Part shown: positions 19,415-45,447 of the stretch, piece by piece | How the letters are laid out: every line of letters begins with the position of its first letter | Numbering within the stretch: position 1 is the first letter of the stretch | Notes under the pieces: model-generated | The model's database searches: none | The model's input: only the letters and a program-made list of their open reading frames with translations | What the model was told of the DNA's origin: nothing | Made by a program: the position numbers and the translations under genes | NCBI GenBank assembly: GCA_023014335.1 | Contig: JAECYW010000022.1 | Coordinates: forward strand, 372,001-436,000 | DNA from: Galerina marginata | Taxonomy: Eukaryota; Basidiomycota; Agaricomycetes; Agaricales; Galerinaceae | Length of the DNA: 64,000 nucleotides | Reading direction: 5' to 3'

Positions 19415-19781
19415 GTCGTAGAGAGTAGAAGGGGACCGGGAAGTATTCGCAGAGCCAGGTTATATTTCTGAATCTCAAGGCTGAAGGTAAGAGCTCGGCA
19501 AGAAGTCGGACTTCCCAGTCTTGGGGAGAAGCTTCATCCTGCAGGACCATATGAGCCTCGCCTTCTACTCCATCTTCCAGCGGTTAATTTAGACAAGAGT
19601 AATTGAAGATCGAAGGGTACCTTCATTGTTTTGGCCAATGTCACGATGGGTGGAAGGAAATGTGAAGCAACGGCCCAGAAGAAGGACGTTCTGTTTGGCG
19701 TTGCTATGCACGATCCTCAGTTTCCTCAAGATATCTGCTGGGACAGCAGTCCGTTCACGGGACGTTCTTGATGGGTACGCC
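19415..19781. other. 5' flank of the carboxylesterase; coding-like remnant
   Basis: Contains the divergent promoter side of the esterase. On the minus strand a frame from 19837 reads through a DQRAVLVFVDLAYP block that recurs at 40.2 kb (see the inverted flank segments). No complete gene is visible. Confidence 0.35.
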
Positions 19782-19813
19782 AAATCAACAAAAACAAGGA
19801 CAGCCCGCTGGTC
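19782..19813 (+). repeat. Left copy of inverted flank segment
   Basis: This 32-nt segment matches the reverse complement of 40186-40217 at 31 positions. Similarity of roughly 70 percent continues outward for about 40 nt, with differences falling in a coding-like pattern: on the opposite strand both copies read DQRAVLVFVDL followed by a similar but diverged peptide. Confidence 0.75.
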
Positions 19814-20049
19814 CAATCCGGTCAGCGCTGTCACCATGCCATCTTCCCAGAATCATATGACTGCCTGAGAAGGTGGTATTTATTATAATACCAGAGTGAG
19901 TCGGTTGGCGCTCACTGTTCTAACTAGGATGAGTGGAATATAACCATATTTATGAGGAGGGTAAAGGTGACCTTATACCAATGAACTAAGACCTGGCAAA
20001 TTTCAGATCATATCAGTGACTTAGGAATGGCAGTATGGAATACTAGTAC

Positions 20050-23000
20050 CATTTGACATCTAATTAGTCAGAGGCTTCCATTTCAAATAAATTTCTACAC
20101 CTGTAATGGGAGGGGGGATGGTTCCCTGCGAGCGGGGTTCTGGTACAAATCCCTGCAGAAAGGGTGGTTAGTTTCCGTTCCCCTCTAATTAAAATGGAAT
20201 TTCAACACTATTCGGCGTCAGTTTAGTTGAGCATATCTATTTAAATGGAGGGGAACGGTTTCCTGGCACGAAATTCTGCCAAGAGGGTGGTCAGTTTCCG
20301 TTCACTGCTATTTAAAATGGAATTTCAAGACTATTCAACGTGAATTTAGTCGATTCAACACTATCCGGCGTCAGTTTAGTTGAGCATATCTATTTAAATG
20401 GAGGGGAACGGTTTCCTGGCACGAAATTCTGCAAAGAGGGTAGTCAGTTTCCGTTCACTGCTCTTTAAAATGGAATTTCAAGACTATTCAACGTGAATTT
20501 AGTCGATTCAACACTATCCGGCGTCAGTTTAGTTGAGCATATCTATTTAAATGGAGGGGAACGGTTTCCTGACACGGAATTCTGCAAAGAGGGTGGCCAG
20601 TTTCCGTTCACTGCTCTTTAAAATGGAATTTCAAGACTATTCAACGTGAATTTAGTCGATTCAACACTATCCGGCGTCAGTTTAGTTGAGCATATCTATT
20701 TAAATGGAGGGGAACGGTTTCCTGGCACGGAATTCTGCAAAGAGGGTGGTCAGTTTCCGTTCACTGCTATTTAAAATGGAATTTCAAGACTATTCAACGT
20801 GAATTTAGTCGATTTAACACTATCCGGCGTCAGTTTAGTTGAGCATATCTATTTAAATGGAAGGGAACGGTTTCCTGGCACGAAATTCTGCAAAGAGGGT
20901 GGTCAGTTTCCGTTCCCCTCAATTGAAATGGAATTTTAACACTATCCGGTGTCAGTTTAGTTGAGCATATCTATTTAAATGGAGGGGAACGGTTTCCTGG
21001 CACGAAATTCTGCAAAGAGGGTGGTCAGTTTCCGTTTACTGCTATTTAAAATGGAATTTCAAGACTATTCAACGTGAATTTAGTTGATTCAACACTATCC
21101 GGTGTCAGTTTAGTTGAGCATATCTATTTAAATGGAAGGGAACGGTTTCCTGGCACGGAATTCTGCAAAGAGGGTGGTCAGTTTCCGTTCACTGCTATTT
21201 AAAATGGAATTTCAAGACTATTCAACGTGAATTTAGTCGATTTAACACTATCCGGCGTCAGTTTAGTTGAGCATATCTATTTAAATGGAGGGGAACGGTT
21301 TCCTGGCACGAAATTCTGCAAAGAGGGTGGTCAGTTTCCGTTTACTGCTATTTAAAATGGAATTTCAAGACTATTCAACGTGAATTTAGTTGATTCAACA
21401 CTATCCGGTGTCAGTTTAGTTGAGCATATCTATTTAAATGGAAGGGAACGGTTTCCTGGCACGAAATTCTGCAAAGAGGGTGGTCAGTTTCCGTTTACTG
21501 CTATTTAAAATGGAATTTCAAGACTATTCAACGTGAATTTAGTTGATTCAACACTATCCGGTGTCAGTTTAGTTGAGCATATCTATTTAAATGGAAGGGA
21601 ACGGTTTCCTGGCACGAAATTCTGCAAAGAGGGTGGTCAGTTTCCGTTCACTGCTATTTAAAATGGAATTTCAAGACTATTCAACATGAAGTTGGTAGAT
21701 TCAACACTATCTGGCGTCAGTTTAGTTGAGCATATCTATTTAAATGGAGGGGAACGGTTTCCTGGCACGAAATTCTGCCAAGAGGGTGGTCAGTTTCCGT
21801 TCCCCTCAATTAAAATGGAGTTTCAACACTATTCGGCGTCAGTTTAGTTGAGCATATCTATTTAAATGGAGGGGAACGGTTCCCTGGAACGAATTTCAGC
21901 AGAAACGGTGGTGAGACTCCATTCACCGCTAATTAAAATAGAACTTCAAGACTATTCAACGTGAGGTTAGTCGAATGTTACCATTTAAATGAGAGGAAAG
22001 GTTCCCTGGAACAAATTCTAACAGAAATGGTAGCCACTTCCGATTTACGATCTATTAATATAAAATTCTGTGACCATTCAATGCCAATTGGGTCGAGAAT
22101 TCCTATTTAATATGGTGGGGAACGGTTCCCTGCCACAAACTTCTGCAAAAAGGGTGGTCAGGTTCCGTTCACAGCTAATTAAAACAGAATTTCCAGATCC
22201 ATTCACCGTAAATTTAGTAGGGTTTTTCTATTTAAATGGGGGAATGGTTCCTTGGAACGAACTTTGGAAACAACGGTGGTCAGACTCTGTTCACTTCTAA
22301 ATGAAATGGGATTTCAAACCTATTTAATGTGGATTGAGTTGAGTATTGCCATTTAAATGAGAGGTAGTTCCATTTCAATTGAGGGCAATGGTTCCCTGGA
22401 CCGAATTCCGGAGCCAATGGTGCACAGATTCCATTGACCGCTAGTTGAAATAGAGTTTAAAGACCAATCACCGTAAATCTATCTAGTATTCCTATTTAAA
22501 TGAGGGGGATGGTTCCCTGGAACGAATTCCTGAAGCAACTGTGGACAGATTCCATTCACCGCTAATTTAAATAGACTTTAAAGACATGAATTTAGTGAGC
22601 ATTTCCATTTAAATCGAGAGGAACCGTTCCTTGACACGAATTGTTGCAGAAACGGTGGTCAGATTCCGTTCACCGCTGATTGAAATGGTATTTCAAGACT
22701 ATTCGGCATAAATTTAGTTGAGTATTTCTATTCTAAGACAGGGGAACGGTTCCTTGGCACTAATTTCTGCAGAGAGGGTGGTCAGTTTCCGTTCACCGCT
22801 AATTAAAATAGAATGTCAAGGCTATTCGGCGTGAATTTAGTCGAGTATATCTATTTAAATGGAGGGGAACAGTTCTCTGGCACGAATTTCTGCCAAGAGG
22901 GTGGTCAGTTTTCGTTCACCGCTGATTAAAATAGAATTTCAGGACCATTCACCATAGATTTACTGGAGGATTTCTATTTAAATAGAAGGGAACGGTTCCC

Positions 23001-23990
23001 TGGAACGAATTCAAGCAGAAACGGTGGTGAGACTTCATTAATTCATTCACCGCTAAAGAGAATAAAATTTCAAGACTATTCAACGTGAAGTTAGTCGAGT
23101 ATTTCTATTTAAATGAGGTGAATGGTTCTCTGGAAGCCGTGAATTGAGTGGAGTACTTCTATTTATATGGAGGGGAACGGTTCCCTGGCACGAAACGCTG
23201 CAGGAATGGTGGACAGTTTCCGTTCACCGCTAATTAAAATAGGATTCAAAAACTATTCAACCTGAATTCAGTCGAGAATTTCTAATTAAATGTGGGGAAT
23301 GGTTTTCACGATTTATTAAAATAGAATTTTAGGACCATTTAATACGACTGAGTCGAGCGTTTCTATTGAACTGAGGGACTAGTTCCCTGGAACGAATTCC
23401 AGCCGAAACGGTCGTCAATTTCTGTTCACTGATAATTGAAATGGAATGTCAAGTCTATTAAATGTGGATTTAGTCGACGATTTCCATTTAAATTGGAGGG
23501 AATGGTTCTCTGGAACGAACACTTCCAGAAACACACCTATTACACGTAAAAATAGTAAAATACTTCTATTCAGAGAACAGAAATGGTGCCCTACTACCTA
23601 TGGATAGAAATGTGGTAGCCAGGTTCCATTCACGGGCGCTTAAATTGGTATCTCAGTGCCATTATGTATGAAATTTGTGAGATATTTCTATTTCTGAGAA
23701 CTGAAACGGTAGCGAACTACTTATGGGTAAAGGATTGGTGGTCAGTTTCTGTTCACTATCGCTTAAAATGGTTTCTCAGTCTCATTACGCATGCAAATAG
23801 TAATAGCAAAGTATTGCTATTTCAAAGAACTGAAACGGTGACTGACTACTTGTGGGTAGAATAATGGTAGTCAGCTTCCGTTCACTGGCGCTTAAGGGGG
23901 TCCATTACATCTCAGAACCGTAAAACAGTTGCCCACTACTTATGGATAGACTATTGGTAGCCAGCTTCTGTTCACCAGCGCTTAAAAAGC
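20050..23990 (+). repeat. Left satellite array of the composite element
   Basis: A tandem array whose outer part (about 20.22-21.90 kb) is nearly homogeneous, with a 153-nt period in most units and 122 nt in two of them; the longer unit adds about 31 nt containing a partial second copy of the monomer. Each unit carries ATTTAAAT and a palindrome GGAACGGTTCC or a close variant. Toward the element interior the units diverge, and from about 23.56 kb a different subtype with ACTACTTATGG appears. Open frames within it are accidental. Confidence 0.9.
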
Positions 23991-24103
23991 ATAACATTTC
24001 GACCCTCCAAAATACGTAGACCGCTCGCAATTGACAAATACAAAAGGAAAAAGGGCTTAACGATCAGCGCTCAGCACCGCCGTTGAAGTGGGATACGAAA
24101 TTG

Positions 24104-26087
24104 TTAGTCCTTCTTCCTTCCCTTTCCCTTCTCCTTCTTCGTCTTTTTCTCAGACTCGTCGTCTCCCTCGTCGTCCCGGCGAACCATATATGCGCGAGCG
24201 AGGGTATACTTGTTTTCGGTGTGTGATTCGGCAGCGTCGTCGAGTTTATTCATGACGTTGAGCATCTTGGTAACTCGTTTCTTGAGCGCCGCCAATCGGT
24301 CCCTACGCACCTCCGGCACCTTGGAAAGGCGGGAGTAGAAGTCCTCCAGATAGATTCCCTGGTTCTGGAAAGCGGTAATAATAAATAAACGGATGCGAGG
24401 ATGCGGCAATCCGTTCATTAAGGGCTCGGTGATAATTTCACCATCAATCTCGCAAGTAACAGACCACGTTTTCCACCATATCAGCTCCCACAATGCACTC
24501 TCCAAAGTGCAGCCGCAGTGGAGTAAGCCCTCCTCTGGCTCCTTACCGTCTGACTTCTTCAGATTCATCATACGAGGGCCGGGGACACCAATGATCTTGA
24601 AGTCCTTCGTGCTGCCCTGCGCGTGGCCGTCGAAGGTACCGCCGCTTTTGTCCTTGCGCTGGTGGTAGAGGCAGGCAGAGTTTGAACGGTTCGAATTAAG
24701 AACAGCCTCTGCCAGCTCCATCGAAGCCGTCACCGCCTCAGGCAGGTAAGCCTGGTCAGTCTTTACCCGACCGAGTACCTCCTTGTTAAAGTCTTTTACA
24801 GCCCGAGTCCAGCCATATACCGGAAGAGCCTTGTGGAATTCGGCGATTGCCTTGTAGCCCTCCTCTGCAATTTCGTCAGAATAATATATTAGTCGGTCAG
24901 GCAGGCACGCGCACCGGTGAGCCTCTGTTGTTCATCTGTCGACAATTCCTCCCATTCTAGCCAACGTGTGTCAAGAACATTGTACAGACCGTGAAAGAGG
25001 GACACATACTCAATTTGGTATCGCCGCCTTCCTTAGCCTCTAGCCAACGTTGTCATGAACATTGTACAGACTGTGAAAGAGGGACACTTACTCTTGGGTT
25101 TCTTCTTTTGAGTAGCCGGTGGAGCAGTCGCTTCTTTCTCCGCGTCGTTGGTTCCGTTGGAATCGCCGCCTTCCTTAGCCTCTAGCCAACGTTGTCATGA
25201 ACATTGTACAGACTGTGAAAGAGGGACACTTACTCTTGGGTTTCTTCTTTTGAGTAACCGGTGGGGCAGTCGCTTCTTTCTCCGTGTCGTCGGTTCCGTT
25301 GGGATGTAACCCGGGAGCTGCCAGTCATTTGTTAGACACTTAGTTAAACAGTCAAAAAATCTATTTACCTTGAGACGTACCTTCATTACCCCCTGCGGCG
25401 TCCTGGTCAATTGACATCGCATCGCCTGCTGCAGCCGGCTGCTTCTCAGGCTCCGAGTTCCCGCCATCCTGGCTGTCTGGTTCATGATCGTCCCCTGCCG
25501 CAGCCGACTGGTTCTCAGGTTCCGAATTCTCGCCATCTTGGTCGTCTAGTAAAATATGTTTCAACCGCAAGTTTCGAAAGAAAAACTGGTTTTTACCTTG
25601 CGTCCTTGCCCTCTTATTGGCATGGGTGCCTTCGTCGGCTGGATCATCCAGGTTAGTTAGGTCTGATTCGACGGATAGCCCGCGTTTGCGCTAATGTAAA
25701 CCTTGAGTTTTCAGCAGGGTTTTAGTTAAGTTGAATTGTGGTCTGACCTGTGGTTCCCTCTTATCTCGGAGCGCTTCTAGATGCTTAACGCTAAGATCAT
25801 ATTCTTGCTGCGCGGCCGTTACTTTTTCATCGGCTGCTTTGGACACAGCTAGATAGTACGCAGTGAGGTGATTGGGATGCGTTTGAAAGAAATATTTGAC
25901 ATACCACGGCTAGGACGACTTCTCGCCTTCAACGCCTTGTAGGACTCTTGGGCTTCGTCCAAAGCAGCCTTACATTGGTCGCGCTTCGTTTCAGCAAGCG
26001 CAATTTCTGTAATAGCTGGATATGAGTAAGTGTACCATATTAAAGGGTCGGCATACCGCTACTGAGATGTTCGGCGGGAGATGACAT
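24104..26087 (-). CDS. Element-borne protein of unknown function, 502 residues, with duplicated exons
   Basis: Ten exons join in phase (26087-26057, 26015-25905, 25848-25748, 25690-25597, 25545-25381, 25317-25234, 25181-25092, 25039-25010, 24956-24915, 24864-24104). The start is MSSPAEHLSS. Residues about 10-80 form a charged helical region (ETKRDQCKAALDEAQ) that could be a coiled coil, followed by KKR-type basic and acidic low-complexity segments. Exons 6 and 7 both encode an EKEATAPP.TQKKKPK block, and together with exon 8 they derive from a tandemly repeated exon-intron unit. The C-terminal 250 residues are more globular (PVYGWTRAVKDFN, GCTLESALWELIWWKTW, IYLEDFYSRL) and end in a Lys-rich nuclear-type tail (KKTKKEKGKGRKKD). 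I do not recognise the family. It is convergent with the left array; a DNA-binding accessory role is an inference. Confidence 0.8.
24950..25260 (-). repeat. Tandem exon-intron duplication inside the 502-residue gene
   Basis: A unit of about 140-150 bp holding an intron and the exon following it is present twice almost unchanged and a third time in part. The introns at 25182-25233, 25040-25091 and 24957-25009 are near copies, each starting GTAAGTG or GTATGTG and ending GTTGGCTAG. Confidence 0.8.
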
Positions 26088-26732
26088 TGCCCAAAAAATC
26101 CAAAAAATCAGGCGGAGAGGATTGAAAGAGTTGGAAAATGATTACAGACGACCGTTCAAAGTGAAGGGAGGATAGATGGAACTGTTCACCATCGCATCCC
26201 TTTCCTCTTTACTATTTCCAATCGGGTTTCGTCGGCGGCCTAGATACCGAAACCCAAGTCCAGGAATCATACAATACGCGTGGTCACATTGGCGTCAGCG
26301 CCTAAGATCAAATTCTCGATGGAGATATCAAGGATTCTCTATCAAACCTCTCACCATCGACAGAAGACAGTCGAGACAAGCCCTTTGAGAAAGTAAAATA
26401 CTGAGCCAACTATTCAACCCCTCACTATTGCCTGATTCGATTCTTTGCCAAAGAAAAGATGCACCAATGCGCTGCTATTGTGCACGTTTACTGTTACCAA
26501 GTCGGTCGTCAGCTGCCCCTCAAGCACGTGCTACATCCGCGCTTATTCAAATTCCAAACGGAGATAATGAGTGATCATAAAGGTTTCAAGGTCCCACGGG
26601 TTTTCAAGCAAAACAACGCACTCCCCCAACACTCCATCTGCATTCTTCATTTTACCCAGAATTTTATCCTCGATCACTCGTATGTTTGTCATGAAATATT
26701 ACGACTATCTGTGCTTACTTTCACCTTTCTAG

Positions 26733-27537
26733 ATGTCCACTCAAGAAAACCCTCTGCCGCTCCCTGAGCGGGCCATAACCTGCCGCTACTGCTGCGCTCA
26801 GTGCGATACGACAATTCCATGGTCTGCGGAGTTCCGGTGCGCAGTGTGCTTTGGAGTGTTCTACTGTGTGCGTCATTTTTATCTCCTGTATATCCTCGTC
26901 CTCATGATTACCAAAGAGCCCGAGATGCGGCGCACTGGACACCGAAGTCCATCGTCCATTCTGCAACGCCCGCATGCGAACGATTCCCGATGGAGTTCAA
27001 GCCATGGATTGGTTGCTTACTTACGAAGCGCATGCTTTACGAATGGTCCTGAAGTTATTGGAGATGAAAATCGTCAGCCGCGGAATCACCATCACCCCGT
27101 CCAACCGATTACAGCTCTTCAAGAACGCCGCCCGTGAACACTGCGCGGTAATCACACTTGTAGAGAGAAACTGCCCACCAACCACCCCAAAGCATGCCCA
27201 AGTTCGCTTTAGAGCCCTGAAAATGGAGAATTTTGATGGGGCTTTTTTGCCAGGGAGCTTCGAGGCGCTGTTCCCATCCGACCTTCCAACGCGTGTTCCC
27301 TTCGTTATCTGCTTCCATCATCTCTCCAAATCCGGGGACGGGTTACAAATAATTTACTTGGTCCAGATCGATCTTCGGAACTTCCCGTCACCGATACCAT
27401 CCCTCAACGATCAGGCTCGAGATTTGTCTACCGAAATCGCTCGTCTTTCTGCCTTAAACCTTGAGGTACCGGAGATGGTCGGCTTGGGGCTCATGAACGA
27501 TGTCTACGAAATTTCAAGCTGGAGAAACGCGTTTTAG
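26733..27537 (+). CDS. MYND-type zinc-finger protein, element-borne
   Basis: Two exons (26733-26867, 26917-27537) give 251 residues. The N-terminal Cys/His spacing fits the MYND consensus: C21-x2-C24-x11-C36-x2-C39-x5-C45-x3-C49-x7-H57-x3-C61, with the intron falling right after C45. MYND fingers bind short proline-containing peptides in partner proteins and are common in chromatin regulators. The remaining 190 residues show no known domain, though HRPFCNARMRTIPDGVQAMDWL and a predicted mixed alpha/beta region are clear. It lies in a group of genes with disordered, proline-rich products that could be partners. It is probably a captured cargo gene or a standard gene of this element family. Confidence 0.8.
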
Positions 27538-28057
27538 TTATGTAGTTATCGCATTCGTTCTTGGGCCTCGTTTCCTGTAACAAGACTTCGCCGCGTAAAT
27601 ACTGTCGAATAAAAATTTCTTGAGCAACATGTGAATAGTTTAAGTGACTGTTAATCATTCCTTAAGGAACATGTGGATAGAATTTCCGTCCTACACCCGA
27701 CGGAACCCGACGAAACTCGCCTCCCCAAACTTCCGAAAAGAGTATACATAATGCTTGGGTCTTGGACTCTCGGGCATAGCTTAATCCGATTGAACTCTAA
27801 CTGAACCGGTACAATGGCATTTGATTACGCGTTTCTCTCTGACGCAGCACGGTTTTTAGATGGGAAGGTCTCTAGCTACCATAAATATTGTCAGCATAGG
27901 CTATAGTTAGAACAGAATCAAACTCGGCGAAACTTCCAGAAATGGTCATGGTGTACCAAAATAGTAATCCATTTACTCCAAATGAACCATTTGGTCGTCA
28001 AAAGGTCCACCTGATACTAAACACCTCTAATACCAATCTACATATCCAGACATGTCT
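27538..28057. other. Intergenic within element
   Basis: AT-rich, with no frame of note. It separates the MYND gene from the convergent acidic-protein gene, so both 3' ends should lie here. Confidence 0.5.
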
Positions 28058-28903
28058 TTACCAATCTACGTAGCCAGACTCGTCATTTTCCGATCGTACT
28101 TCGTCTGAATCTTCGTTTGAATTGTCGGAATCGAAAAGGGGATCGTGCAGTGGATGTCGGTGCTCGCGAACGCGTCCCCAGTCGGCCCTATTTGAACCGT
28201 AGGGCCATTCGAATATACTAGGCGGTCTATTCCATCCGCGAGCACGTAGTCTGGCTGTCACTCGCTGTTGCCTGATGTCATCCGGGTATTCGTCATCTGA
28301 ATCGTCCTCGAATACTTCTGGATCCTCGGCGAGTGGATTGAGCATTGCGTAATACTCTTCTTCTGTATCGTAGTCGTCATCGTCGCCTTCGATCTCGTCT
28401 TCCTGTGGGTACTGAGGTGAAAGGGGAAGCCTGGTCTGCTGCCGATAACGCGGTGGGATGCGAAGGGGAGGAGATGCAGGAGATGCTGCCAGGATTCTCC
28501 GGTGGAGTTCGCGAATGAGTCCTGGTAGGCCGTCGCAGTCCTCGTCAAGGCACCCAAATGGCCGGTAAATTATGAACCCGCCAGGCTCAACGGGCTCCCC
28601 TGTGAAAACTCGGGCTATGCGCCAGTGCGGTCGTTGCTGGGCGCAATAGACCATGTAACGGTTGCTGGAGCGACCCCCATACAGTCCCCTCTGGATACCT
28701 AAGCAAAATGCCAGCCCGGGATCCCTATATGGGTAGAGTAAGTCGTCTTCTATTTGACCTGCGAGGCATAGATATCTCTGGGACGCAAACAGTAAGCGAT
28801 GTTAAATTAAGCGCTCACTAGCATACAGACGCACCGGTATGTCATCATCAGTAAGGTATAGACAGACAAATACCTCCCTTGGATCAGTCGGAGGCGCAGC
28901 CAT
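28058..28903 (-). CDS. Acidic element-borne protein of unknown function, 261 residues
   Basis: Two exons (28903-28819, 28758-28058) join in phase from MAAPPTDPREVFVCLYL to the stop. The first half looks folded (DIPVRLYASQIEDDLLYPYRD, RYMVYCAQQRPHWRIARVF). The second half is very acidic and likely disordered, with runs such as EGDDDDYDTEEEYY and EDDSDDEYPDD, ending DESGYVDW. No enzymatic motif is visible. The acceptor at 28759 was chosen over two nearer AGs because only it keeps the frame. Its place inside the element, in the same orientation as its two minus-strand neighbours, suggests a role there; this is inference only. Confidence 0.75.
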
Positions 28904-29195
28904 TATGTCAGTATGCGCGTACGAAAGGGGCGGGTAACAGATCCTCTGGAAAAATTGTTGATTGATATTTAAGTTGCTTTACCTATCACCTGGGCTCGCC
29001 TCGGCCCGAACAATACTCTGATGTGAGCCGTCCCATTCTGTCTCCTTCAGCCCGAGAATCGGCCCCCGGCTAACCTCAATAATTGGCGCAAGATTTAATG
29101 TTTGCCGCATGCATTGTGAGAGTCCACCTCGAATATTTTTCTATTAGAATATTACAAATAGCCGGGGAAAGCACTGGAATTCTATCGACGTTGAC
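28904..29195. other. Intergenic within element
   Basis: Promoter side of the acidic-protein gene and 3' side of the Pro-Ser-Met repeat gene. No coding frame or clear signal seen. Confidence 0.4.
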
Positions 29196-29994
29196 TCAAC
29201 CCTCAAAATTGACGGGTTTCAAAGCCATAGCCACCGTGTGACTAGCATCAATATGGTCCAATACGAAAAGAGCTCCACCGATATCTGTCAATTTGTTCAA
29301 GACCTGTTGCCATAGCGTAAGATATCGATCTTGGTCTATCCTAGGAGCGAGCTTTGCAAGCAGCTCCCTTCCCCGTCTTACAAGCTCTATTCCTGCCTCG
29401 GTATGAGTCGCAATTTTCTCTGAAATTCCTGTTTTGCTGTAAGGGATTTGAGCGATCCAGCCATCGAAAAAATCGTAGGAATCATCGACAGATTTAAGCA
29501 GGGTGGAACAATGTTTAAACAAGCGAGTCGCTTGCGCAATGAAAATTTTACATTCCTCTTCCAGGACATCTGAGACACTTGTTTGAGCGACGTCGGGATT
29601 TGATACGCTGTTTTGCGGTGAGAAAGATGGCATGGGCGAGGGCGAGGGCATGGGCATGGGCGAGGGCGATGGCATAGGCGAGGACGAGGGCATAGGCGAG
29701 GGCGATGGCATAGGCGAGGGCGATGGCAAGTCGAAAGCTGGAAAGGAAGCAGTTGCCTCTTCCTTCCTGTAAACTAGCGGTTATATAAAACACGCTTCTG
29801 AAAGCTTTTCGTGCTACCTTTTTTTTCTCATCTCTCGCTTTCGCAAGGCGTTGGCTGCATTAACCTTCTTGCGATTTCTATGCTGAAAGTTGATTTAAAA
29901 GGCTTTTATTTGAACGACTGACTTACTTCTCGACATATCGCTGGGACTTCGTTTTTCCGTCTGGTCCAATCTTGGCTTTCTGGCGCTTTGCCAT
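29196..29994 (-). CDS. Element-borne protein with basic N-terminus and Pro-Ser-Met repeats, 232 residues
   Basis: Three exons (29994-29927, 29877-29818, 29766-29196) give 232 residues. The start MAKRQKAKIGPDGKTKSQRY and the following NRKKVNAANALRKREMRKKR are strongly basic, as in nuclear or DNA-binding tails. A minisatellite-coded PSPSPMP repeat follows at about residues 55-95, then a 130-residue mainly helical region (EEECKIFIAQATRLFKHCSTLL onward, IELVRRGRELLAKLAPRI). The function is not recognised. The repeat DNA (about 29636-29725) is built from a short GC-rich unit and probably varies in length between strains. Confidence 0.75.
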
Positions 29995-30850
29995 TTCAAA
30001 AGACAGAAACGGACGTGTAACAGATGGGACAGTGACACGGGTGAGGGTAAGTGGAGACAGATGGAATCAGTGTTCTCGATTGGGATAGGGATGCGACCAG
30101 GATGCGACCGGGATGCGACCCAGAGGGATGCGACCCGGATGCGACCTGAAAGACTTCAAAATATATTGCCAGAACTGCTTGCTGGAATATCAAAATATAT
30201 CTCAATGTTAAATTATTATCCTTGAAATGGTGGCTTTGTCGACGGAGCCAAAACATTGAATTTCTATCAAGCAAGAAGCATTTCGGTGATGACTATTGCA
30301 TATCCAACGTTCGGTGAGCCCAATTCGCTACGCTCGACCAATATTGCGGTCAAGTTGACCATAAAATAGGCTTGGTCTTCAAAATTATATTGACAGAACT
30401 GCTTACTGGAATAGCAAAGGTATTTCAAGCATTAAGCACACAACTATGTTCCTGTGGAACAAAATGAAATTCTGATAGTCTCAGAAGTCAGCATTACGAG
30501 GAAGTTCAGAACGCGACTGAAGATAATTTACTTGTACGTCTGACTCTTTTTCTGCGACTCAGAATTTAAGTCGTCATACTATTATCGTTAAGTCAAACCA
30601 ATCGTTACGAGGAAGTCAATTCTAGGAACCTCCCCAGAACACGGCTGAAGACAATTTACTTGTTCAGACTCTTCTTCTGCGACTTAAAATTTAGGTCGTC
30701 AAACTATTATTATTAGGTCAAACAAAGCGTTACGTCGGGTGCCAATTCTCATTGAAGTATATATACTACACTCCGAACATAAGGCGACACGGAATTCAAA
30801 AATAGGTGCTACGCCTTGAGGCAAAAAAGAAAATTATTGAAGTAGGCATA
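29995..30850. other. Repeat-bearing intergenic region within element
   Basis: No gene. It contains an 11-nt minisatellite (unit close to GGGATGCGACC, five copies at about 30086-30150). A diverged direct repeat lies at about 30160-30205 and 30378-30425 (shared core AGAACTGCTT), and a second diverged direct repeat of about 100 nt at about 30513-30605 and 30643-30735. Confidence 0.6.
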
Positions 30851-32290
30851 CTACTCTCCCAACTGAAGTCGATATCGAGCTATCAATACGTCTTTAGCAG
30901 CCAACTCAGCTTGTTGATCCAATAATTTCTTTTGAGCTTCTAACGACCTTACTTGCTCCCCACGCCTCTGTGCCTCCTGCGCTGCAAGTACGTCTTGCAG
31001 TTGTTTAGCCAACTCCTTAGCGTCGTTGTATTTGGCAGTTGTGAGCGCTTTGGTGAGCTTCTGGAACTGTTGGAGTATGGATGTTGTTTCTTCAATTGCG
31101 TCCTTACGAAGCTTTGAGGAGGAATAGGTAATGGCAGCTCCTGCGCTCGACAGCTGGGCACCAAAAATAATCCATGCGCCAGTCTCTTCTGCAATTCTTT
31201 CGCACTGATTTCATTAGAAAGTTGTCACCGTAAAGTATGGGAAACTTACACGAGTGACAATATTATCGACCTCTCTTTTGTACCGTTTACTAGCAGAATG
31301 GGCCTCTTGTATCGGCTGGCGCATGGGCTTTAGTCTTGCCACCTCTATAAGACAATTGAACAACAGGTAAACAAACGATTCATAACGTCAAACATTTCAA
31401 GGAAGCTTACGGTATTTTTGAGTCCCTTTCATGGCTCCTTCAACATATCCGTGCGGAGCGTTTCTAAGAGAAATACGAGCACGCTTCTTGGTTGGCGTGT
31501 CCTCATCTTCACTGTTCTCAAGATCCTTGTCGTGAGCTTGGGTAAAAGCCGTTGAGCCTGAAGGCTGGAAATCATCGGGCATCTGATTATGCAAGTCGTT
31601 TGAGGCAGGGAGAGGAGTAGAAGGAGGTAGGGGGCTAGATGCTGGGGCCGGACTAGAAGGTGGAATGGGGCTGCACGAAGGAAGTGGGCTGGGCGCCAAA
31701 ATTGGACTGAGATCCTGAGTAAGGGGAGGATTGGCCCGATTTTCTACTGGGTTGGGGTTAGAGACTGTGGCAACAGGCGACATCATTGAGAAATTCCAGC
31801 CAGACAGTTGGGATGACGGGTAGGTAGGTGATGGATACACGACCGGGAACCACTGCGAGAGTGCGTTACGAGGATCAACATATTGCGGAACTGCTTGATT
31901 AAAAGTTTGAGGGTTGGCAGGGAACCCTGAACTAGTCGACGGGACACTGACAACGGCCCCGGACGTCGGTGTAGCAGGAGCCTATGGGATGTACAGAACC
32001 ATTGACATGAATTCCGTGAGGAGAATTATGGGAAGAACGAACCAAGGGAGAAGAAACCTTGGGAGATACTTCAGTTATGGTAGGACTGAGTGTTACTGCT
32101 GGCATATCGACCTTTGAATGACCGTCAGGCTCAGGCAAGCAATGGTAACAATAGAACTTACCAAGTTTTTTTTCTTCCTTGAGGGCCTTGAGGGGCCATG
32201 AATCGGACACTCTGAAAGCAGAGGAAAGCTAGGACAGCGGCGGCACCGACGGCCTTTTTGCTTGCGTGGAGAATTCGACTTGGGTGCCAT
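30851..32290 (-). CDS. Element-borne proline-rich coiled-coil protein, 405 residues
   Basis: Five exons (32290-32162, 32111-32043, 31981-31411, 31344-31250, 31204-30851) join in phase. The N-terminus MAPKSNSPRKQKGRRCRRCP is basic with a CxxC and a further C-P-I-H-G, so a small metal site is possible. Residues about 70-240 are Pro/Ser-rich and disordered, with a KKRAR nuclear-type signal at about 235. The last 110 residues form a long charged helix (LQQFQKLTKALTTAKY, ELAKQLQDVLAAQEAQRR), probably a coiled coil that oligomerises. The second intron uses a GTTCGT donor, chosen because it alone keeps the frame. It is divergently arranged with the transposase gene, start to start, about 230 nt apart, so both may share a promoter region. 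Confidence 0.8.
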
Positions 32291-32522
32291 GATCAACAAA
32301 GCGGTGAGTCCGGGAAGGCCACGTTCAGAAATAAAATTATGTAAACAGACCAGCAATAACAATTCAAGATTTGCAACTATTGAGACCGTAATTTGGTAAA
32401 GTTCCACCATTTGTTTTATACGATTTAACCTATCAGGTGTCGGTATGGTTATAACTTACCGTTTTAGGACAATTGGACCGCCATTACCATTTCAAGTGGT
32501 GTTTGGTCAGGTTTAACAATCT
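32291..32522. promoter_or_regulatory. Bidirectional promoter region between coiled-coil and transposase genes
   Basis: A 232-nt AT-rich gap separates the divergent starts at 32290 (-) and 32523 (+). No canonical TATA box was picked out, but the head-to-head layout implies both genes are controlled from here. Confidence 0.5.
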
Positions 32523-35500
32523 ATGTTAACCCAAAGTGGAAACGCCTTGATCGCACAACTTGTCGCACAAACCATGGACTCCAACAACGACTTCAGACTT
32601 GCAGTACCCCCATCCGACGATGAAGACTGTCTCCAACTTTCAGCAGTAGAAGATAACGATTTAATCGTCCTTAGTCCTCAAAAGCGACAGCGCTTGTACC
32701 AACCAGGAAAGCGAACCAAACGTCGGACGACGTATCAGCTTGTTCCAGCCCCGACCTCTGGAAACTCTGAAGACAGCCCAGTTACGGTTCCAGATTTGGA
32801 GTTTGAAGGAGCAGGATCCTGGAATGACTCAGAACATTCTGGCCCTGGCATGAACGATAGCTTGCCCTTGGCCACGGCGGATGCAACTGCCAGTGATGTG
32901 CCAGAGGTGGGTAGCAGCCATGAATATGATGAATACGTGGACTGTGTTATGGCTGGAGCCGCTGGTTTCTTTCAGCTAGAAACAGACCTCTTTGTAGTCC
33001 AGGGCTGGGATACAAACAGGAGCGCAACAAAGGTGAGTCTAACCGTTAACAGAGTTCAACTGTCGCTGACACAGATTAGACGGCACAATGGTATCATTTA
33101 CAGAAAATTATCGTCGGCTGTGAACAATCGGTTGTGTGCTTCTGTCCACAGAATAAATTGTCCCAGCACTGTTTTCACGTCCGATTCCTTAACGACTACG
33201 GAGCCCAACAATTCCCCGACTCTACAGTTGGTCCTGAAAGTGAGTGTCCTGAGATTTTTAATTGATGCAAATCATCTGACTATCAGTTCACCAGAAAAAC
33301 ATCGACCCGTCATAATATTTTTGTGGGAGGCAGACGACTCCCTTTCAAGGCATGCATTTTCCGTCTCGGCAGATCAACGACGGGATAGCGTTAAAGCTCG
33401 CGTGGTGATACACCATGTAGGAAGCGAAAAAGGTGGTGGATCCTGGACATGCTCTAAGGACGGACGTGAAATGTGTGGCCATATCAACCGCGCAAAGAAT
33501 TACCTTCTGCAAGCAACAAACGGAGAGCCGGCTGGAACTCTGACCTCTGAATCGGACAAGGAGGAAGTACAAGGTGAATAATTTCTCCTCTTGCCAGATC
33601 TTATCTAAGTACGCTTCAGTACTGCCTGAAATTGCTCGAAGTCCCAGAGGCCAGTCTTGTATTTCACACCTACCCGTTCTACCTCCAATTTGGGCTGCTC
33701 TACCCCGGGATCAGGTCCTCTACGACAGACCTCCGGCCCTTCGGCGTCCTCCTAATGTAATCCAATTGGATTTGGATGCACGCTGTCTCTGCGATTCCCG
33801 TGTCAAGCTGGATGTCCAATCAATCCGTTTACCTTGCAAAGTGTATACCCTTGCTGAAGCTTTCAATTGTGAGATCGAGGTCCAAGTCTGCCCCGAGTCT
33901 TGCTCAAGAGGTGTTAGTAAACGCTACGTTGGGGCTGATGGAAGGTCAATCGGGCTTTTCAACTATAACAACAAAATTCTCTTTGCGCACGACCTGCTCG
34001 ACGACTACACAATGGCATATACCTCCTCTGAAACTCCATTTGTTGCTTGGGTTAGCGTCGTGGAACGCCGATATTTGACCTTCTCTGCGAATGCGTCATT
34101 CGTTAGTGAAGATATTTTCCGTAATGCTTGGTTCCTGTACGCCAGATTGCAAAACTATGAACATGATATGGAATGCCCTACTTGTGGTCCGGAGCCAGTC
34201 ACGGTCATTTTCGATGGAGTAACCCTGGCTTACGGAAAAAAGCATCTCACCTCGTCCCTTCAACCGCCTACCACAATTACTACTGCGTCCGTCCGTCAAC
34301 CCTCCAGATATGTGTATGGACAGGCATTTCTTGGCAATGAAATTCGGAAGTTAGTCAGGAAGGTCGTGACTGGACGCTCGCTTGTTCTTTCAGAGAAAGA
34401 ACAGAAGATCTCACAAGAATTAGGGTCCAGTGCTCCGGCAAATGATTCTGGGGAGGAAGAAGAGTTTGAGGACATTTCTAAACAATCAACTTCCTCTAGA
34501 TTGCGCACTATTCGCGAGGTAATTGATCGTATTGAAGCTATCCCATCAGCTCGCTCTGGTCTCCAGGAAATTTCTCCGTCCCTTGGAGAGCTGTTTGGAA
34601 AATACTGTGGTGTCGAACGACTAATGGCTCAGATAGCGACACCCCAAGAATATGTGGCTTTTTTTAAAGAGGTACGCTTTCTTTTTGCACTGACCGGCGT
34701 CACGCTTATTACATGTCTATCGTTAAGCTCAGTGCGCAAGAATCGGTCCTACAAATGATTCCTCTTCCTTCTTTGGCTGCATTAAATAAATTCATTCAAA
34801 ATCCGACGCCAGCCAATGCAACCCTCCTGCGGTGTATCCCGGCCTTGTTTAACATTGTCAGATACGAGGAGTCATGGGCATCTGACCGCTCAACAGGCTA
34901 CCCATCTGCAGTGTTAGATGTTTGCAAGTGGATGGCCAAAAGAGCCTTGGATGTCCTACAAGGATTGAGAACTCATAAACCACCGCCGTGCGATGAATCA
35001 ATAATCCAACAAACTCAAGACTGGCTAACAGTACGTCCAAATCCATCGTTGTTTCTGCACACTAATTGAAGCTCATCAGACTGGAAGCCTCTACAACATG
35101 CCTAAAATACGGCACCGCCCCGAATACCCTAACTTGAAGCACGACCAGAACGTCGATGGGGGCAAACAACGGGCAAAGTGCTCAAAATATTTTGCTGAGT
35201 ACGGCGAGAATCGCCTAACCGGAGGCATCATGGTGTGTTGGTGTACTCATAATGTTGCCTATGGGTTCCACTGTATCCCCAAGGGCGAAGGCAGGAACGA
35301 CGTCTTTTCTGCCTTGCTGACACACTGGAAGGTAGCTCCTAAATGGGTAGTCTACGACTTTGCTTGCGCATTGGCCCCGTACTGCATGACACGTGAAGCA
35401 GATTTCTTCAAGAACACTCGGTTCGGCATTGACGATTGCCATGCACTTGGGCATACAAAATGCGGCCCTTCTTGTTTCATTAAAACCTATGGCGATTTAG

Positions 35501-35679
35501 ACCCTCAAATCGCAAGAATTAACACAAGCGCGGCAGAATGCGGAAATGGAGGAATTAGCCGCATTCGAAAATCGGTTATATACATGCGAGAAGACAGAGC
35601 AATCATTTACACAAGGGTCTTTCTGGCGATATGGAACAGGCTGAAAATTCGAAGAATACTAAAGCAATCTGGTATTTAG
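32523..35679 (+). CDS. KDZ-type transposase with CxC cysteine clusters
   Basis: Six exons (32523-33032, 33080-33239, 33295-33566, 33610-34671, 34728-35030, 35080-35679) give about 968 residues; the ATG at 32574 is an alternative start. The N-terminus is disordered with KRTKRR. Next comes a cysteine region (VVCFCPQ, GSWTCSKDGREMCGHI), then a CxC5/CxC6-like region (LPPIWAALP, CPTCGPEPVTVIFDGV) of the kind tied to Kyakuja-Dileera-Zisupton transposases. The last exon has the core: TGGIMVCWCTH, GFHCIPKGEGRNDVF, VVYDFACALAPYCM, FGIDDCHALGHTKC and SAAECGNGGISRIRKS. Candidate acidic catalytic residues are Asp 862 (YDFAC), Asp 887/888 (IDDCH) and Glu 922 (AECGN). The 43-nt third intron is short, so that junction is less sure. 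The frame is intact, so the element may be recently active. Confidence 0.88.
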
Positions 35680-36020
35680 AACCGTCGATTCCTTTCCCAT
35701 ACGGATACAATTATCTAACAACCTGGATTTATTACTCAATTTTGTATTATACTTTCTATGTAGATCGTTGTACATACTCCAACTTCAAAGCAGATTGACA
35801 AGAAACATATCATACATTACGCACTCGAAACGATGAGCTCTATCGCACAAATTCAACAAATGTCCAATGACTTTCTACCAAGATCCAACTTCAATATAAC
35901 TCCATCCGTAATCCCTTCCACTCTACGAAAAGAAAACAGAAACTTCAAATGTTTAAGAACTCAAAATAATCGAATAAAAGCTATGAACATACCATGCGTA
36001 TTCCAGACGGCTTCCTCTGT
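35680..36020. other. Intergenic within element
   Basis: AT-rich 3' flank shared by the convergent transposase and small orphan genes. No coding frame with support. Confidence 0.5.
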
Positions 36021-36543
36021 TCAGTCCATAGCAATCAACCTGTCCAGGTAGTAGACCATCCCTTCCCGTACCCAAACAGAATCCTTGTTGTCCAACTCCC
36101 TATCTTGGTAGTCCGGCGTGTCGTCCGGATTCAAAGGGTGGAATAGGTGCATCCCCCCAAGGTAGTGGCCATCCCTTCGATGTAGTCGTCCAGTCCAATG
36201 ATAGCGGTCTTCGGTATGCGACGTGTGGAAATCAGAGCTGCATGCAGGTGAGCGAGATTCGAAAAGCTAATGAAAATGCTCACCTAATAACGACGAACGA
36301 ATCCTGTACCGCGTCCCAGCCATAGGCCTCAACCAATTCGGCCTTTAGAAATTTCATGGCTCGTTGAGCGATCCGTTCCATTGCGAGACGAGCCGCCCTA
36401 GTATTTGGATAGCATGTGTCGAGCCATGCAAGCGTGAATAACATTGGAGCGATGGAAGAGTTGGAAGACAGTGATAGTCGTAGTTGATGATGAGTGAGGT
36501 TGATGATGAGTGACGGATTAGACGAAAACGTTATTGGCTTCAA
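36021..36543 (-). CDS. Small element-borne orphan protein, 158 residues
   Basis: Two exons (36543-36284, 36237-36021) joined across a 46-nt intron give 158 residues. The first half contains a helical block (ARLAMERIAQRAMKFLKAEL) ending VEAYGWDAVQDSFVVI. The second is rich in His, Asp and aromatic residues (HWTGRLHRRDGHYLGGMH, DSVWVREGMVYYLDRL). No known domain is apparent. It is the gene nearest the right array, convergent with the transposase. It could be an accessory protein of the element. Confidence 0.65.
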
Positions 36544-36809
36544 CGGTTCAATAATTATCTCGCAATATTAATAATATAACCAATTTTGACACTTCAAAAC
36601 AATATCACCCTGTATTCACCTAAATCACCTAGTCATTCTAAAGTTACATTATAAGCGCCAAAAAACTGACGCTGGTATCTCTAAATATAGATCCAATAAA
36701 TGAAAAAACGTCAGAGCACGTGGACCGAGTTGTTACGGAACACTCCTTAGTTTGAGAGTCCGCACTGTACTGATCCGAAGGTCCGAGTCGCCCACAGAAG
36801 CTTCCGAAT

Positions 36810-39800
36810 GTCGACTAAACTTCTATTAATAGTCATGGAATTCCATTCTATTTAGCGGTGAACAGATCTAACAACAGTTTCTGGAAGAATTCGTGCCAGG
36901 GAACTATTTCCTTCCCACTCAAATGGAAATATTCAACTCAACTAACATTGAATGGTCTTGAGATTCCATTTCAATTAGCAGTGAACGGATTTTGGATACT
37001 ATATCAGCTGGAATTCGTTCTGGGGAACCATTCGCCTCCCATTGAATAGAAATGCTCGACTAGATTGATATTTAATAGTCGTAAAATTCCATTTTAATTA
37101 GCGGTGAACGGAATCTTACCACCATTTCTGGAGGAATTCGTCCTAGGGAACCATTGCCATCCCATTTAAATGGTGATACTCGACTCACCTTGTAAGGAAA
37201 CCATTGCCCTTGATATTTAAATAGTAATACTCGACTCAGCGTACTTTGAATGGCCTTGAAACTCCAAAATTCCATTTCAAGTAGCGGTGGACGGAATCTG
37301 ACTACCGTTTCTTCCGGAATTTGTACCAGGCAACCATTTCCTTCACCTCAATTTACACTAATGGCCTTGATATTCCGTTTCACTTAGCTGTGAACGGAAT
37401 TTGACAACTATCTTTGGAGGAATTCGTTCTGGGGAACCATTCCCTCCCATTTAAATAGAAAGACTCGACCAAATATCGAGCCAACGGTCTTGAAATTCCA
37501 ATTTAATTAGAGTGAACAGGATATGACCACCGTTTCTGGAAGAATTCGTGCCAGAAAACCATTCTCCTCTGATGTCAATAGAAATACTCAACTCAATTTA
37601 CATTGAATGGTGTTGAAATTCGGTTTCAATTAGCGATGAACGGAATTTGACAACCTTTCCCGGAGGAATTCGTTCTGGTGAACCATTCCCCTCCCATTTA
37701 AATAGAAAGACTCGACCAAATATCGAGCCAACGGTCTTGAAATTCCAATTTAATTAGAGTGAACAGGATATGACCACCGTTTCTGGAAGAATTCGTGCCA
37801 GAAAACCATTCTCCTCTGATGTCAATAGAAATACTCAACTCAATTTACATTGAATGGTGTTGAAATTCGGTTTCAATTAGCGATGAACGGAATATGACAA
37901 CCATTCCTGGAGGAATTCGTTCTGGGGAACCATTCCCCTCCCATTTAAATAGAAAGAGTCGACCAAATATCGAGCTAATGGTCTTGAAATTCTAATTTAA
38001 TTAGGGTGAACAGGATATGACCACCGTTTCTGGAAGAATTCGTGCCAGAAAACCATTCTCCTCTGATGTCAATAGAAATACTCAACTCAATTTACATTGA
38101 ATGGTGTTGAAATTCCGTTTCAATTAGCGATGAACGGAATTTGACAACTATCTTTGGAGGAATTCGTTCTGGGGAACCATTCCCTCCCATTTAAATAGAA
38201 AGACTCGACCAAATATCGAGCCAACGGTCTTGAAATTCCAATTTAATTAGAGTGAACAGGATATGACCACCGTTTCTGGAAGAATTCGTGCCAGAAAACC
38301 ATTCTCCTCTGATGTCAATAGAAATACTCAACTCAATTTACATTGAATGGTGTTGAAATTCCGTTTCAATTAGCGATGAACGGAATCTGACAACCATTCC
38401 TGGAGGAATTCGTTCTGGGGAACCATTCCCCTCCCATTTAAATAGAAAGAGTCGACCAAATATCGAGCTAATGGTCTTGAAATTCTAATTTAATTAGGGT
38501 GAACAGGATATGACCACCGTTTCTGGAAGAATTCGTGCCAGAAAACCATTCTCCTCTGATGTCAATAGAAATACTCCACTCAATTTACATTGAATGGTGT
38601 TGAAATTCCGTTTCAATTAGCGATGAACGGAATCTGACAACCATTCCTGGAGGAATTCGTTCTGGGGAACCATTCCCCTCCCATTTAAATAGAAAGAGTC
38701 GACCAAATATCGAGCTAATGGTCTTGAAATTCTAATTTAATTAGGTGAACAGGATATGACCACCGTTTCTGGAAGAATTCGTGCCAGAAAACCATTCTCC
38801 TCTGATGTCAATAGAAATACTCAACTCAATTTACATTGAATGGTGTTGAAATTCCGTTTCAATTAGCGATGAACGGAATTTGACAACCTTTCCCGGAGGA
38901 ATTCGTTCTGGTGAACCATTCCCCTCCCATTTAAATAGAAAGACTCGACCAAATATCGAGCCAACGGTCTTGAAATTCCAATTTTAATTAGAGTGAACAG
39001 AATCTGACCACCGTTTCCTTCCAGAATTCATCCTAGAGAACCGTTCCCCTCTGATGTGAATAGAAATACTCAACTTAATTTACACTGAATGGTCTTGAAG
39101 TTCCGTTTCACTTAGCGGTGAACAGAATTTGACAACCTTTCCCGGAGGAATTCGTTCTGGTGAACCATTCCCCTCCCATTTAAATAGAAAGACTCGACCA
39201 AATATCGAGCTAATGGTCTTGAAATTCTATTTTAATTAGGGTGAACAGAATCTGACCACCGTTTCCTTCCAGAATTCGTCCTAGGGAACCATTCCCTCTG
39301 ATGTAAATAGAAATACTCAACTTAATTTACACTGAATGGTCTTGAAGTTCCGTTTCACTTAGCGGTGAACAGAATTTGACAACCTTTCCCGGAGGATTTC
39401 GTTCTGGTGAACCATTCCCCTCCCATTTAAATAGAAAGGCTCGACAAAATATCGAGCTAACGGTCTTGAAATTCCAATTTAAATACGGTCAACAGAATCT
39501 GACCACCGTTTCTTCCAGACTTCGTATTAGGAAACCATTCCCCTCCCATGTGAATAGAAATACTCAACTTAATCTACATTGAATGGTCTTGAAATTCCGT
39601 TTACCTTAGCGGTGAACGGAACTTGACAACCATTTCCGGAGGACTTCGTTCCGGTGAACCATTCGCCTCGCATTCGAATAGAAAGGCTCCACTGAATTTC
39701 TATTTGATAGTCTTGAAATTCCATTCTATTCAGCCGTGAACAGAATCTATCCACCATTTCTGGAAGTATTCGTGCCAGGGAACTATTTCCTTCCCACTTA

Positions 39801-40110
39801 AATGGAAATACTCACCTCAATTTACATCGAACGGTCCTAAAATTCCGTTTCAATTAGCTTTGAACGGAATTTGACAACCACTTCCGGAAGAATTCGTTCC
39901 GGTGAACCATTCCCTCCCATTTATATAGCAAGACTTGACTAAATTTCTACTCAATATTCTTGAAATTCCAATTTAATTAAGGTGAACGGAATCTGACCAC
40001 TCTTTCTTCCAGAATTCGTCCCAGGGATCCATTCCCCTCCCATGTGAATAGAAATACTCAACTCAATTGACACTGAATGGTATTGGAATTGCATTCATCA
40101 ATTGTGAACA
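36810..40110 (-). repeat. Right satellite array of the composite element, inverted relative to the left array
   Basis: A tandem array of the same family as 20.05-23.99 kb but reverse-complemented. In the central part (about 37.4-38.95 kb) the period is close to 247 nt, made of two diverged half-units of about 123 nt. Each half-unit contains a GGGAACCATTCCC-type near-palindrome, CCATTTAAAT, and a GAATTCGT block. Units near both ends are more diverged. Confidence 0.9.
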
Positions 40111-40185
40111 GACTCCCGCTGCATGGGTGTCCCAGATCATGTGATGCTGTGAACTTGCCTCTGTGCGACAATGCTCACCTGCTGA

Positions 40186-40217
40186 GACCAGCGGGCTGTC
40201 CTTGTTTTTGTCGATTT
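40186..40217 (-). repeat. Right copy of inverted flank segment
   Basis: Reverse complement of the left 32-nt segment with one mismatch. It lies about 70 nt upstream of the CFEM gene start, so it could contribute to that gene's promoter or 5' UTR. Confidence 0.75.
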
Positions 40218-40288
40218 GTCGTTCCCACAAAGAACACCTGGTGACTCGACGCCTATCCGTATCTGCTTGACCTCCACCTCCTTCACCG

Positions 40289-43160: not shown

Positions 43161-43209
43161 TAAAAATTCTGTACAAATTTTGTAGTGCGTAAATTGAATT
43201 TGAGTAGAC

Positions 43210-43278
43210 GAAAAAATGCATGACAGAAGCAGGCAGTCTCGCTTCGCTCGCCTACCTGCTTCTGCCTTGCATTTTTTC
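43210..43278. repeat. Fold-back element, copy 1
   Basis: A 69-nt hairpin with 27-nt arms matching at 24 positions around a loop of TCTCGCTTCGCTCGC. Arms start GAAAAAATGCA and include CAGAAGCAGG. Confidence 0.75.
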
Positions 43279-43323
43279 TATTTCTTATGGTAAGGTGGAA
43301 ACACAGAATAAAACTTCAGTCAA

Positions 43324-43394
43324 CGAAAAAATGAGAGACAGAAGCAGGCAGTCTCGCTTTGCTCGCCTACCTGTTTCTGCCTCTCATTTTTTCG
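43324..43394. repeat. Fold-back element, copy 2
   Basis: A 71-nt hairpin nearly identical to the one at 43210-43278. Arms of 28 nt match at 25 positions; the loop is TCTCGCTTTGCTCGC. Arm and loop changes suggest the two copies diverged after duplication or transposition. Confidence 0.75.
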
Positions 43395-43539
43395 TATTCA
43401 TAAGTATCTTTTGTGTATTCTTAGTCCCATAATGTAAACCTACACTATTATATGTTCCGTTCACTCATTTAAATGTGTGAATGGTTTTAATAAATGTATA
43501 TCATTCTAGAAATAGTATCTAATACATTAATATATAAAT

Positions 43540-44940: not shown

Positions 44941-45447
44941 TCGATTGAGCCACGTCAGATGATGTTGGTGGGACGGCGGACGGACGGCGGACGTGCCACA
45001 AAGTGGTGGTGGTTGAAAGAAAGTGACGCGACGCGGAGACATCAACAAACCTCAAACTGTGGGAATTTCCTGGGAAGCCGGGCCCGGTTGGAGCGAAGAG
45101 AGGGCGGTTGGTTCAAACTCAGCTTATTACATAACATTATTAAGTAACATTCTTATGTCATCAAAAACCCGTCCTCTCTTAATATCTTTGATATTCACCA
45201 ATCCAGGTAACAGGTACTAGAAAAAACTTCTATGAATGCGCTTGGAATATTCAATGCACACCTTTCTACTGTTTTCTTGAGAGCATGGTCACGTGGCTAG
45301 TATCTTCATGAACGTTCAACTTTTCAAATTTCAACGCTCTCCTCAGACCACGAGAGGAGCCAGTTGTGAGTGAGTCTCCCATCAAAATAGCCAAGTCATA
45401 TTTCTTACTGATCACCTCTCAGCGTAGCAGCGATTACAAATTTCCTC
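44941..45447. other. 5' flank of the F-box-like gene
   Basis: No supported gene. The composition drops from GC-rich repeats to ordinary AT-richer sequence at about 45.12 kb. Confidence 0.4.

Follow-up and report, generated by a model that had tools for sequence, protein, structure and literature searches.

The 64-kb stretch of the Galerina marginata genome analysed here, hereafter the window, is C15:372001-436000 of a 69.3-Mb assembly in 43 contigs. It contains a transposon of 20,520 bp at window positions 19740-40259. It is near certain that the entire block, delimited by 74-nt terminal repeats and creating an 8-bp target-site duplication, transposes as a single unit, because there is a second copy, two two-ended relatives each have a duplication of their own, and gene order is shared. 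An earlier note on this DNA had proposed such a single mobile block, and that proposal stands. The element is probably complete and possibly autonomous, a member of a CxC4 lineage in the KDZ superfamily with a DDE transposase and satellite arms that would act as phased protein-binding arrays.

The edges were set by aligning outward from the inner termini until homology between the window copy and the second copy, on contig C43, ends (19740 and 40259). These limits lie 42 bp outside those of the earlier note, which had also suggested looking for a target-site duplication at the outer edges. A perfect one of 8 bp, TATCTGCT, is present at both. The termini are as follows.

19732-19739, no strand: left copy of the target-site duplication TATCTGCT, the 8 bases adjoining the end of C15/C43 homology, identical to 40260-40267
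19740-19813, plus strand: left terminal inverted repeat, imperfect over 74 nt, inner 26 nt exact
40186-40259, minus strand: right terminal inverted repeat
40260-40267, no strand: right copy of the target-site duplication TATCTGCT

The element ends read GGGAC../CGGAT.., and the 74-nt terminal inverted repeat is imperfect in its outer part and exact in its inner part. The exact 26-nt word lies inverted at 19788-19813(+) and 40186-40211(-), once outside each satellite array. The near-identical inverted 32-nt segments that had been reported around the arrays are thus real, with 26 nt exact, but are only the inner part of the longer terminal repeat. A genome search with the 26-nt word, allowing up to 3 mismatches, returned four sites, two in the window and two on C43, 18.8 kb apart; its reversed control pattern returned 0 sites in the same search.

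The second copy (C43:1070047-1088950, 18,904 bp) is in the opposite orientation, has flanks different from those of the window copy and is bracketed by its own 8-bp duplication, AACATGAC (read in window orientation). The two copies are 99.71% identical over 15,901 aligned bp. Relative to the window, the C43 right arm is ~1.5 kb shorter and the left arm 153 bp shorter; the gene G4 shows one in-frame difference of 18 bp, and upstream of the start of the gene G7 there is a difference of 1 bp. Transitions make up 26 of the 27 substitutions, and 14 of these 26 are at CpG, against a background of 21% of C positions. This pattern suggests cytosine methylation of the element.

Diverged relatives with the same gene order were found on C39, C1 and C40 by a DNA search with the ~12.8-kb coding block between the arrays. 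Because that search missed the 99.7% copy on C43 and the window itself, its counts are lower bounds. Two relatives are complete: C39:3463997-3485183 (21,187 bp, 8-bp duplication CCAAAGTC) and C1:4461774-4481699 (19,926 bp, 8-bp duplication CAAAAAAA). Their termini are 82-84% alike to those of the window element, and their transposase genes have ~71% DNA identity to its own. A terminal-repeat search found nine ends, two each on C15, C43, C39 and C1 and one on C40, and a perfect 8-bp duplication brackets all four two-ended copies (C40 has one end). The homology of C40 to the window ends inside the transposase gene. Beyond this point, within C40:364667-376500, comes a 473-bp inverted repeat (97.7%) that may represent a further insertion.

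Tandem arrays are prone to misassembly, and the earlier note had named reads showing that only misassembly joins the arrays as something that would overturn its block. That arrays and unrelated genes were brought together by chance or misassembly is nonetheless extremely improbable, and we rule it out on the second-contig copy and the two diverged relatives, each with its own target duplication. The term 'composite' does not fit: two insertion elements around a cargo are contradicted by the one CxC4 match and the one pair of termini, and the block is a single element with termini of its own. No empty allele was found within this assembly: a search with the flanks joined recovered nothing but the two flanks in their interrupted state.

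Seven coding units lie between the arrays, and six of them have relatives in C39, C1 and C40 with the order kept. The transposase, G5, G1 and G7 were modelled by hand splicing; G2, G3 and G4 are open frames only, and their models are incomplete. The seven intact multi-exon genes proposed previously hold up as seven coding units but not as seven complete models.

24107-26087, minus strand: G1, coiled-coil-like and acidic, with a conserved Cys/His-containing C-terminal half, 9 exons hand-spliced
26908-27534, plus strand: G2, a 209-codon open frame, weakly conserved (24-25%)
28061-28801, minus strand: G3, a 247-codon open frame, ~60% conserved in three relatives
29199-30066, minus strand: G4, a fast-changing coding unit (31-36%) with an 18-bp repeat
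30851-32290, minus strand: G5, 382 aa, 4 exons hand-spliced, C-terminal part 79-84% conserved
32574-35679, plus strand: transposase, 984 aa, 4 exons hand-spliced, a CxC4 cluster followed by a DDE-like catalytic domain
36021-36444, minus strand: G7, a gene of ~125 codons in 2 exons

The transposase matches the CxC4 cluster PF18717 (E 3.7e-44), which adjoins the transposase domain as in the KDZ superfamily. The match to the KDZ catalytic domain PF18758 is 20-21 bits, under the Pfam cut-off of 26.6, and profile comparison with a classical KDZ transposase of the same genome gives E 2.8e-4 over 95 columns (probability 41%). The two domains occur together in 6 of 120 homologues among the matches listed. 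Of the KDZ/CxC transposase announced in the earlier note, the CxC4 cluster is confirmed, and the protein is likely a distant KDZ relative, akin at the level of the superfamily. Its predicted structure is nearest to DDE recombinases, with an RNase-H-like DDE fold and a conserved D/D/E acidic triad, for which we propose D532, D878 and E938 as catalytic residues. Cut-and-paste movement of the element by this protein, as a DDE enzyme of RNase-H-like fold, is very likely. The genome has 22 CxC4 places, and CxC4 proteins are common among Agaricales database entries, labelled hypothetical, 'HMG' or 'SWIM'. PF18758 gives 135 match pieces in the host genome, counted exon by exon and not as copies. Several near-identical open PF18758 pieces are clustered, for example at C40:2654185-2832370 and C39:692625-1168913, suggesting a recent KDZ expansion.

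Substitutions between the window and C39 indicate that purifying selection keeps the transposase, G1, G3 and G5. Synonymous sites are saturated or nearly so (proportion of synonymous differences, pS, 0.64-0.82). The corresponding nonsynonymous proportion, pN, is 0.045 in transposase exon 4, 0.141 in exon 2, 0.146 in exon 3 and 0.277 in the aligned part of exon 1; it is 0.08 for the G5 C-terminus, 0.242 for G1 and 0.241 for G3, and reaches 0.41 for G4 and 0.50 for G2. Because the C39 cuts used for this test contain stops (3 in G2, 2 in G3 and 12 in transposase exon 1), intactness of every C39 frame is not claimed.

We infer accessory roles in transposition for G1 and G5. The inner genes could instead be host cargo and not machine parts, as the fast change of G2 and G4 and the lack of G7 from the three relatives would fit. 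This is unlikely: G1, G3 and G5 are under purifying selection with their order kept in three relatives, and weaker relatives of G1 (28%) and G5 (40%, in the opposite orientation) also lie on C8, in a 33-kb stretch belonging to a more distant CxC4 element. G1 is 58-60% identical in the C39, C1 and C40 relatives. The sole database matches of the G1 core (63%) and of the G5 C-terminal part (80%) are both in Galerina marginata; distant relatives may escape this protein search because it requires shared 5-residue words. Nothing convincing was found for either protein in Pfam or in a PDB sequence search. G7, which has no match in the C39, C1 and C40 relatives, is multi-copy elsewhere in the genome; on C8 it follows the transposase, and on C42 a CxC4 match lies close by. 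The stretch around it (35734-36800) recurs at 73-84% identity on C8, C41, C4, C42, C33, C18, C12, C40 and C26. Some of these recurrences have no nearby CxC4 match, and G7 may move on its own or be captured frequently.

The coding block is enclosed by two satellite arms.

20118-23990, plus strand: left arm, a satellite array with monomers of ~123 and 153 bp, strongest period 30.5 bp
36814-40090, minus strand: right arm, a satellite array with monomers of ~123/247 bp, strongest period 30.9 bp

As previously claimed, these are inverted arrays of one repeat family (limits approximate), matching each other inverted at ~65-80%. Arms as inverted copies of each other do not carry over to every relative. 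In C39 no inverted match between its own two arms was found at E <= 1e-5, and in C1 such matches are weak (67-74%, one at 81%). The arms of C39, C1 and C40 carry other satellites, mainly of 338-371 bp. Searches with the window-element arms, which skip very common words, matched only the C15 and C43 copies, and a host satellite origin of the arms was rejected within that limit.

A period of ~30.8 bp, close to three turns of DNA, is common to these arms. The main monomer lengths of 123, 153, 247, 338 and 370 bp are about 4, 5, 8, 11 and 12 times 30.8 bp, and autocorrelation lags fit its multiples at 30, 62, 92-93, 123, 153, 185, 246-247, 277-278, 338 and 369-371 bp. Among Fourier periods of 8 to 60 bp, all seven arms, which come from four elements, peak at 30.3-30.9, and none of the 7 control stretches does so. 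In a sliding scan of the window, 14 of 126 positions exceeded a threshold of our own choice, all overlapping the arms. That the period might be just a harmonic arising from tandem repeats was checked against random arrays of equal monomer length and rejected: the information of a fitted 31-bp unit beats all 12 random arrays in each of the seven arms (0/84). A scan of spacings from 23 to 41 was best at 30-32 in six of the seven arms, and at 40 in the window left arm. The fitted unit is not alike across families, and we make no claim that it is a binding motif.

The autocorrelation lists also hold off-ruler lags such as 23, 37, 81, 158, 328, 351 and 359, and the C39 left arm has a 666-bp repeat composed of 338+328, of which 328 is off the ruler. 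Per arm, 6-20% of random-array trials also had their top period within the band; as the band was moreover picked post hoc and the arms are related, this test is moderate when taken by itself. Armed elements hold 4 of the 22 CxC4 places. No recognised arm was found at C8 (33 kb) or at C42 (partly covered); the C8 scan did pass the threshold in two windows, but these fall on a 126-bp repeat. At 4 of the other 16 CxC4 places, pieces of 3.2-3.4 kb gave no period signal.

We consider it about an even matter whether the arms work as phased binding arrays in transposition. In the proposed mechanism, the DDE transposase would cut and paste the whole element, and the ~3-4-kb arms are predicted to be arrays of protein-binding sites about 30.8 bp, or three helical turns, apart. 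Three-turn spacing would align bound proteins on one DNA face. Aligned sites could then favour cooperative binding of the transposase or of G1/G5, enough for ends 20 kb apart to be recognized and paired. Array sequence would be free to turn over as long as spacing and terminal repeats are retained. A bolder form of this proposal, which we hold only tentatively and at less than even chances, is that these arms represent a novel type of transposon end. They would form a long, helically phased scaffold in which spacing is conserved, with each family rewriting the motif together with its fast-evolving DNA-binding proteins, the transposase N-terminus and G1; a filament-like nucleoprotein complex could then synapse 20-kb elements, and G1, G3 and G5 would be its dedicated accessories.

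Arms that are passive in a real element present a competing explanation of some weight, if short of an even chance. Slippage and unequal exchange would have shaped them, and the 30.8-bp period would be a functionless relic of an ancestral repeat. Main monomers do differ by whole units, as slippage of a 31-bp founder would produce; array length varies between copies, as in the shorter C43 arms; some words are common to families, suggesting shared origin; and off-ruler lengths are present. Yet the spacing is found in the window and C39 although synonymous sites are saturated or nearly so, indels should blur a pure relic spacing, and each of the three two-ended families examined has an arm at either side. 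A further candidate, which we regard as rather improbable, is that the arms serve chromatin organization or silencing, through nucleosome phasing, a boundary or heterochromatin nucleation, and are not transposase sites. The CpG transitions would agree with this, except that they suggest methylation of the element and not specifically of the arms. In all three two-ended families examined, the arms lie immediately inward of the terminal repeats, and 30.8 bp is not known as a nucleosome repeat length, both of which speak against chromatin devices.

Starships are large cargo-bearing elements of Pezizomycotina that use a tyrosine recombinase. As far as the sources available go, they resemble the window element in being large, fungal and cargo-bearing, and differ in enzyme class. 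Closer systems are found within the KDZ superfamily. Terminal inverted repeats with an 8-bp duplication, present in all four two-ended copies, are of the Zisupton/Dileera/Cryptococcus KDZ type. According to the accessible text, Cryptococcus KDZ1-3 are ~9-11 kb, with a CxC1 cluster, 139-241-bp terminal repeats and target duplications of 8 bp (4-8 bp for KDZ2/3) (PMC12810828). They resemble the window element in a CxC-bearing transposase of the KDZ superfamily, to which the window protein likely belongs, and in having both terminal inverted repeats and duplications of 8 bp. They are smaller and have CxC1, not CxC4, and the accessible text mentions neither satellite arms nor an accessory gene set (PMC12810828). 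Zisupton and a Dileera-lineage element are described, in the portion at hand, with 8-bp duplications, and some elements treated there carry an extra TET/JBP gene (Kojima 2025, PMC12730594); the window element likely shares their superfamily and has the same duplication length, and Pfam scans of the element proteins gave no TET/JBP match. The words 'CxC', 'subterminal' and 'satellite' occur 0 times in the main text of PMC12730594. Kyakuja elements, described in the same portion with 7-bp duplications and CA..TG ends and without terminal repeats (PMC12730594), are ruled out by the 8-bp duplication, the GGGAC../CGGAT.. ends and the 74-nt repeats. For Marasmius oreades, another Agaricales mushroom, the accessible texts describe terminal repeat motifs of KDZ/Dileera/Kyakuja elements and an element library reaching ~42 kb (PMC8290104, PMC9674265), which may already include an element of similar make-up. 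The Pleurotus MSH4 insert is likewise a mobile fragment of a mushroom, present in several copies, with a CxC-cluster protein; it is a CxC5/CxC6 insert of 6,792 bp, and the available text reports no KDZ-type transposon within the expected distance of the clusters (PMC7641404).

Among the sources available, the nearest precedent for the proposed mechanism is Galileo (Drosophila, P superfamily), which has long terminal arms with internal tandem repeats, as in the window element. In the part of the source available, its arm repeats hold several transposase-binding sites (PMC3688188). Its transposase is of THAP/P type, unlike the CxC4 protein of the window element. Membership of the Galileo/foldback class was rejected, the transposase being CxC4/KDZ-like and a THAP match absent from Pfam scans. 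Tetris, a Drosophila foldback element (PMC4079207), has similar long arms with internal tandem repeats and is apparently non-autonomous; neither a multi-gene block nor a helical ruler is mentioned for the two in the accessible texts (PMC3688188, PMC4079207). Unlike Galileo, the families of the window element, judged from their sequences, keep spacing while arm sequence changes. Among the literature matches listed, no described element has the same structure (most subscription papers and the Marasmius oreades supplements were outside reach), and a literature search for periodic subterminal repeats returned no match.

The insertion lies between a minus-strand carboxylesterase-like gene (start 19411) and a plus-strand gene for a small secreted-looking protein (start 40298), both named from their translations only. 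The two genes are divergent, and the start codon of the right one is 30 bases past the second duplication. The element may alter the expression of both. Farther into the right host flank are duplicated stretches at 43192-43402 and 44205-44862, one with a palindrome-like core, and the guanine-plus-cytosine content rises to 61% at 44001-45000.

These results tie a CxC4 protein to a complete element with defined ends, which makes its role as a transposase testable, and the copies supply exact ends for an excision assay. If the arms do keep three-turn spacing despite sequence change, they are a natural experiment in how the ends of a large transposon are recognized and paired, and phased arms could explain the satellite arms of some transposons. 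Retention of the accessory genes suggests that a multi-protein machine may be needed by large eukaryotic elements of the cut-and-paste kind.

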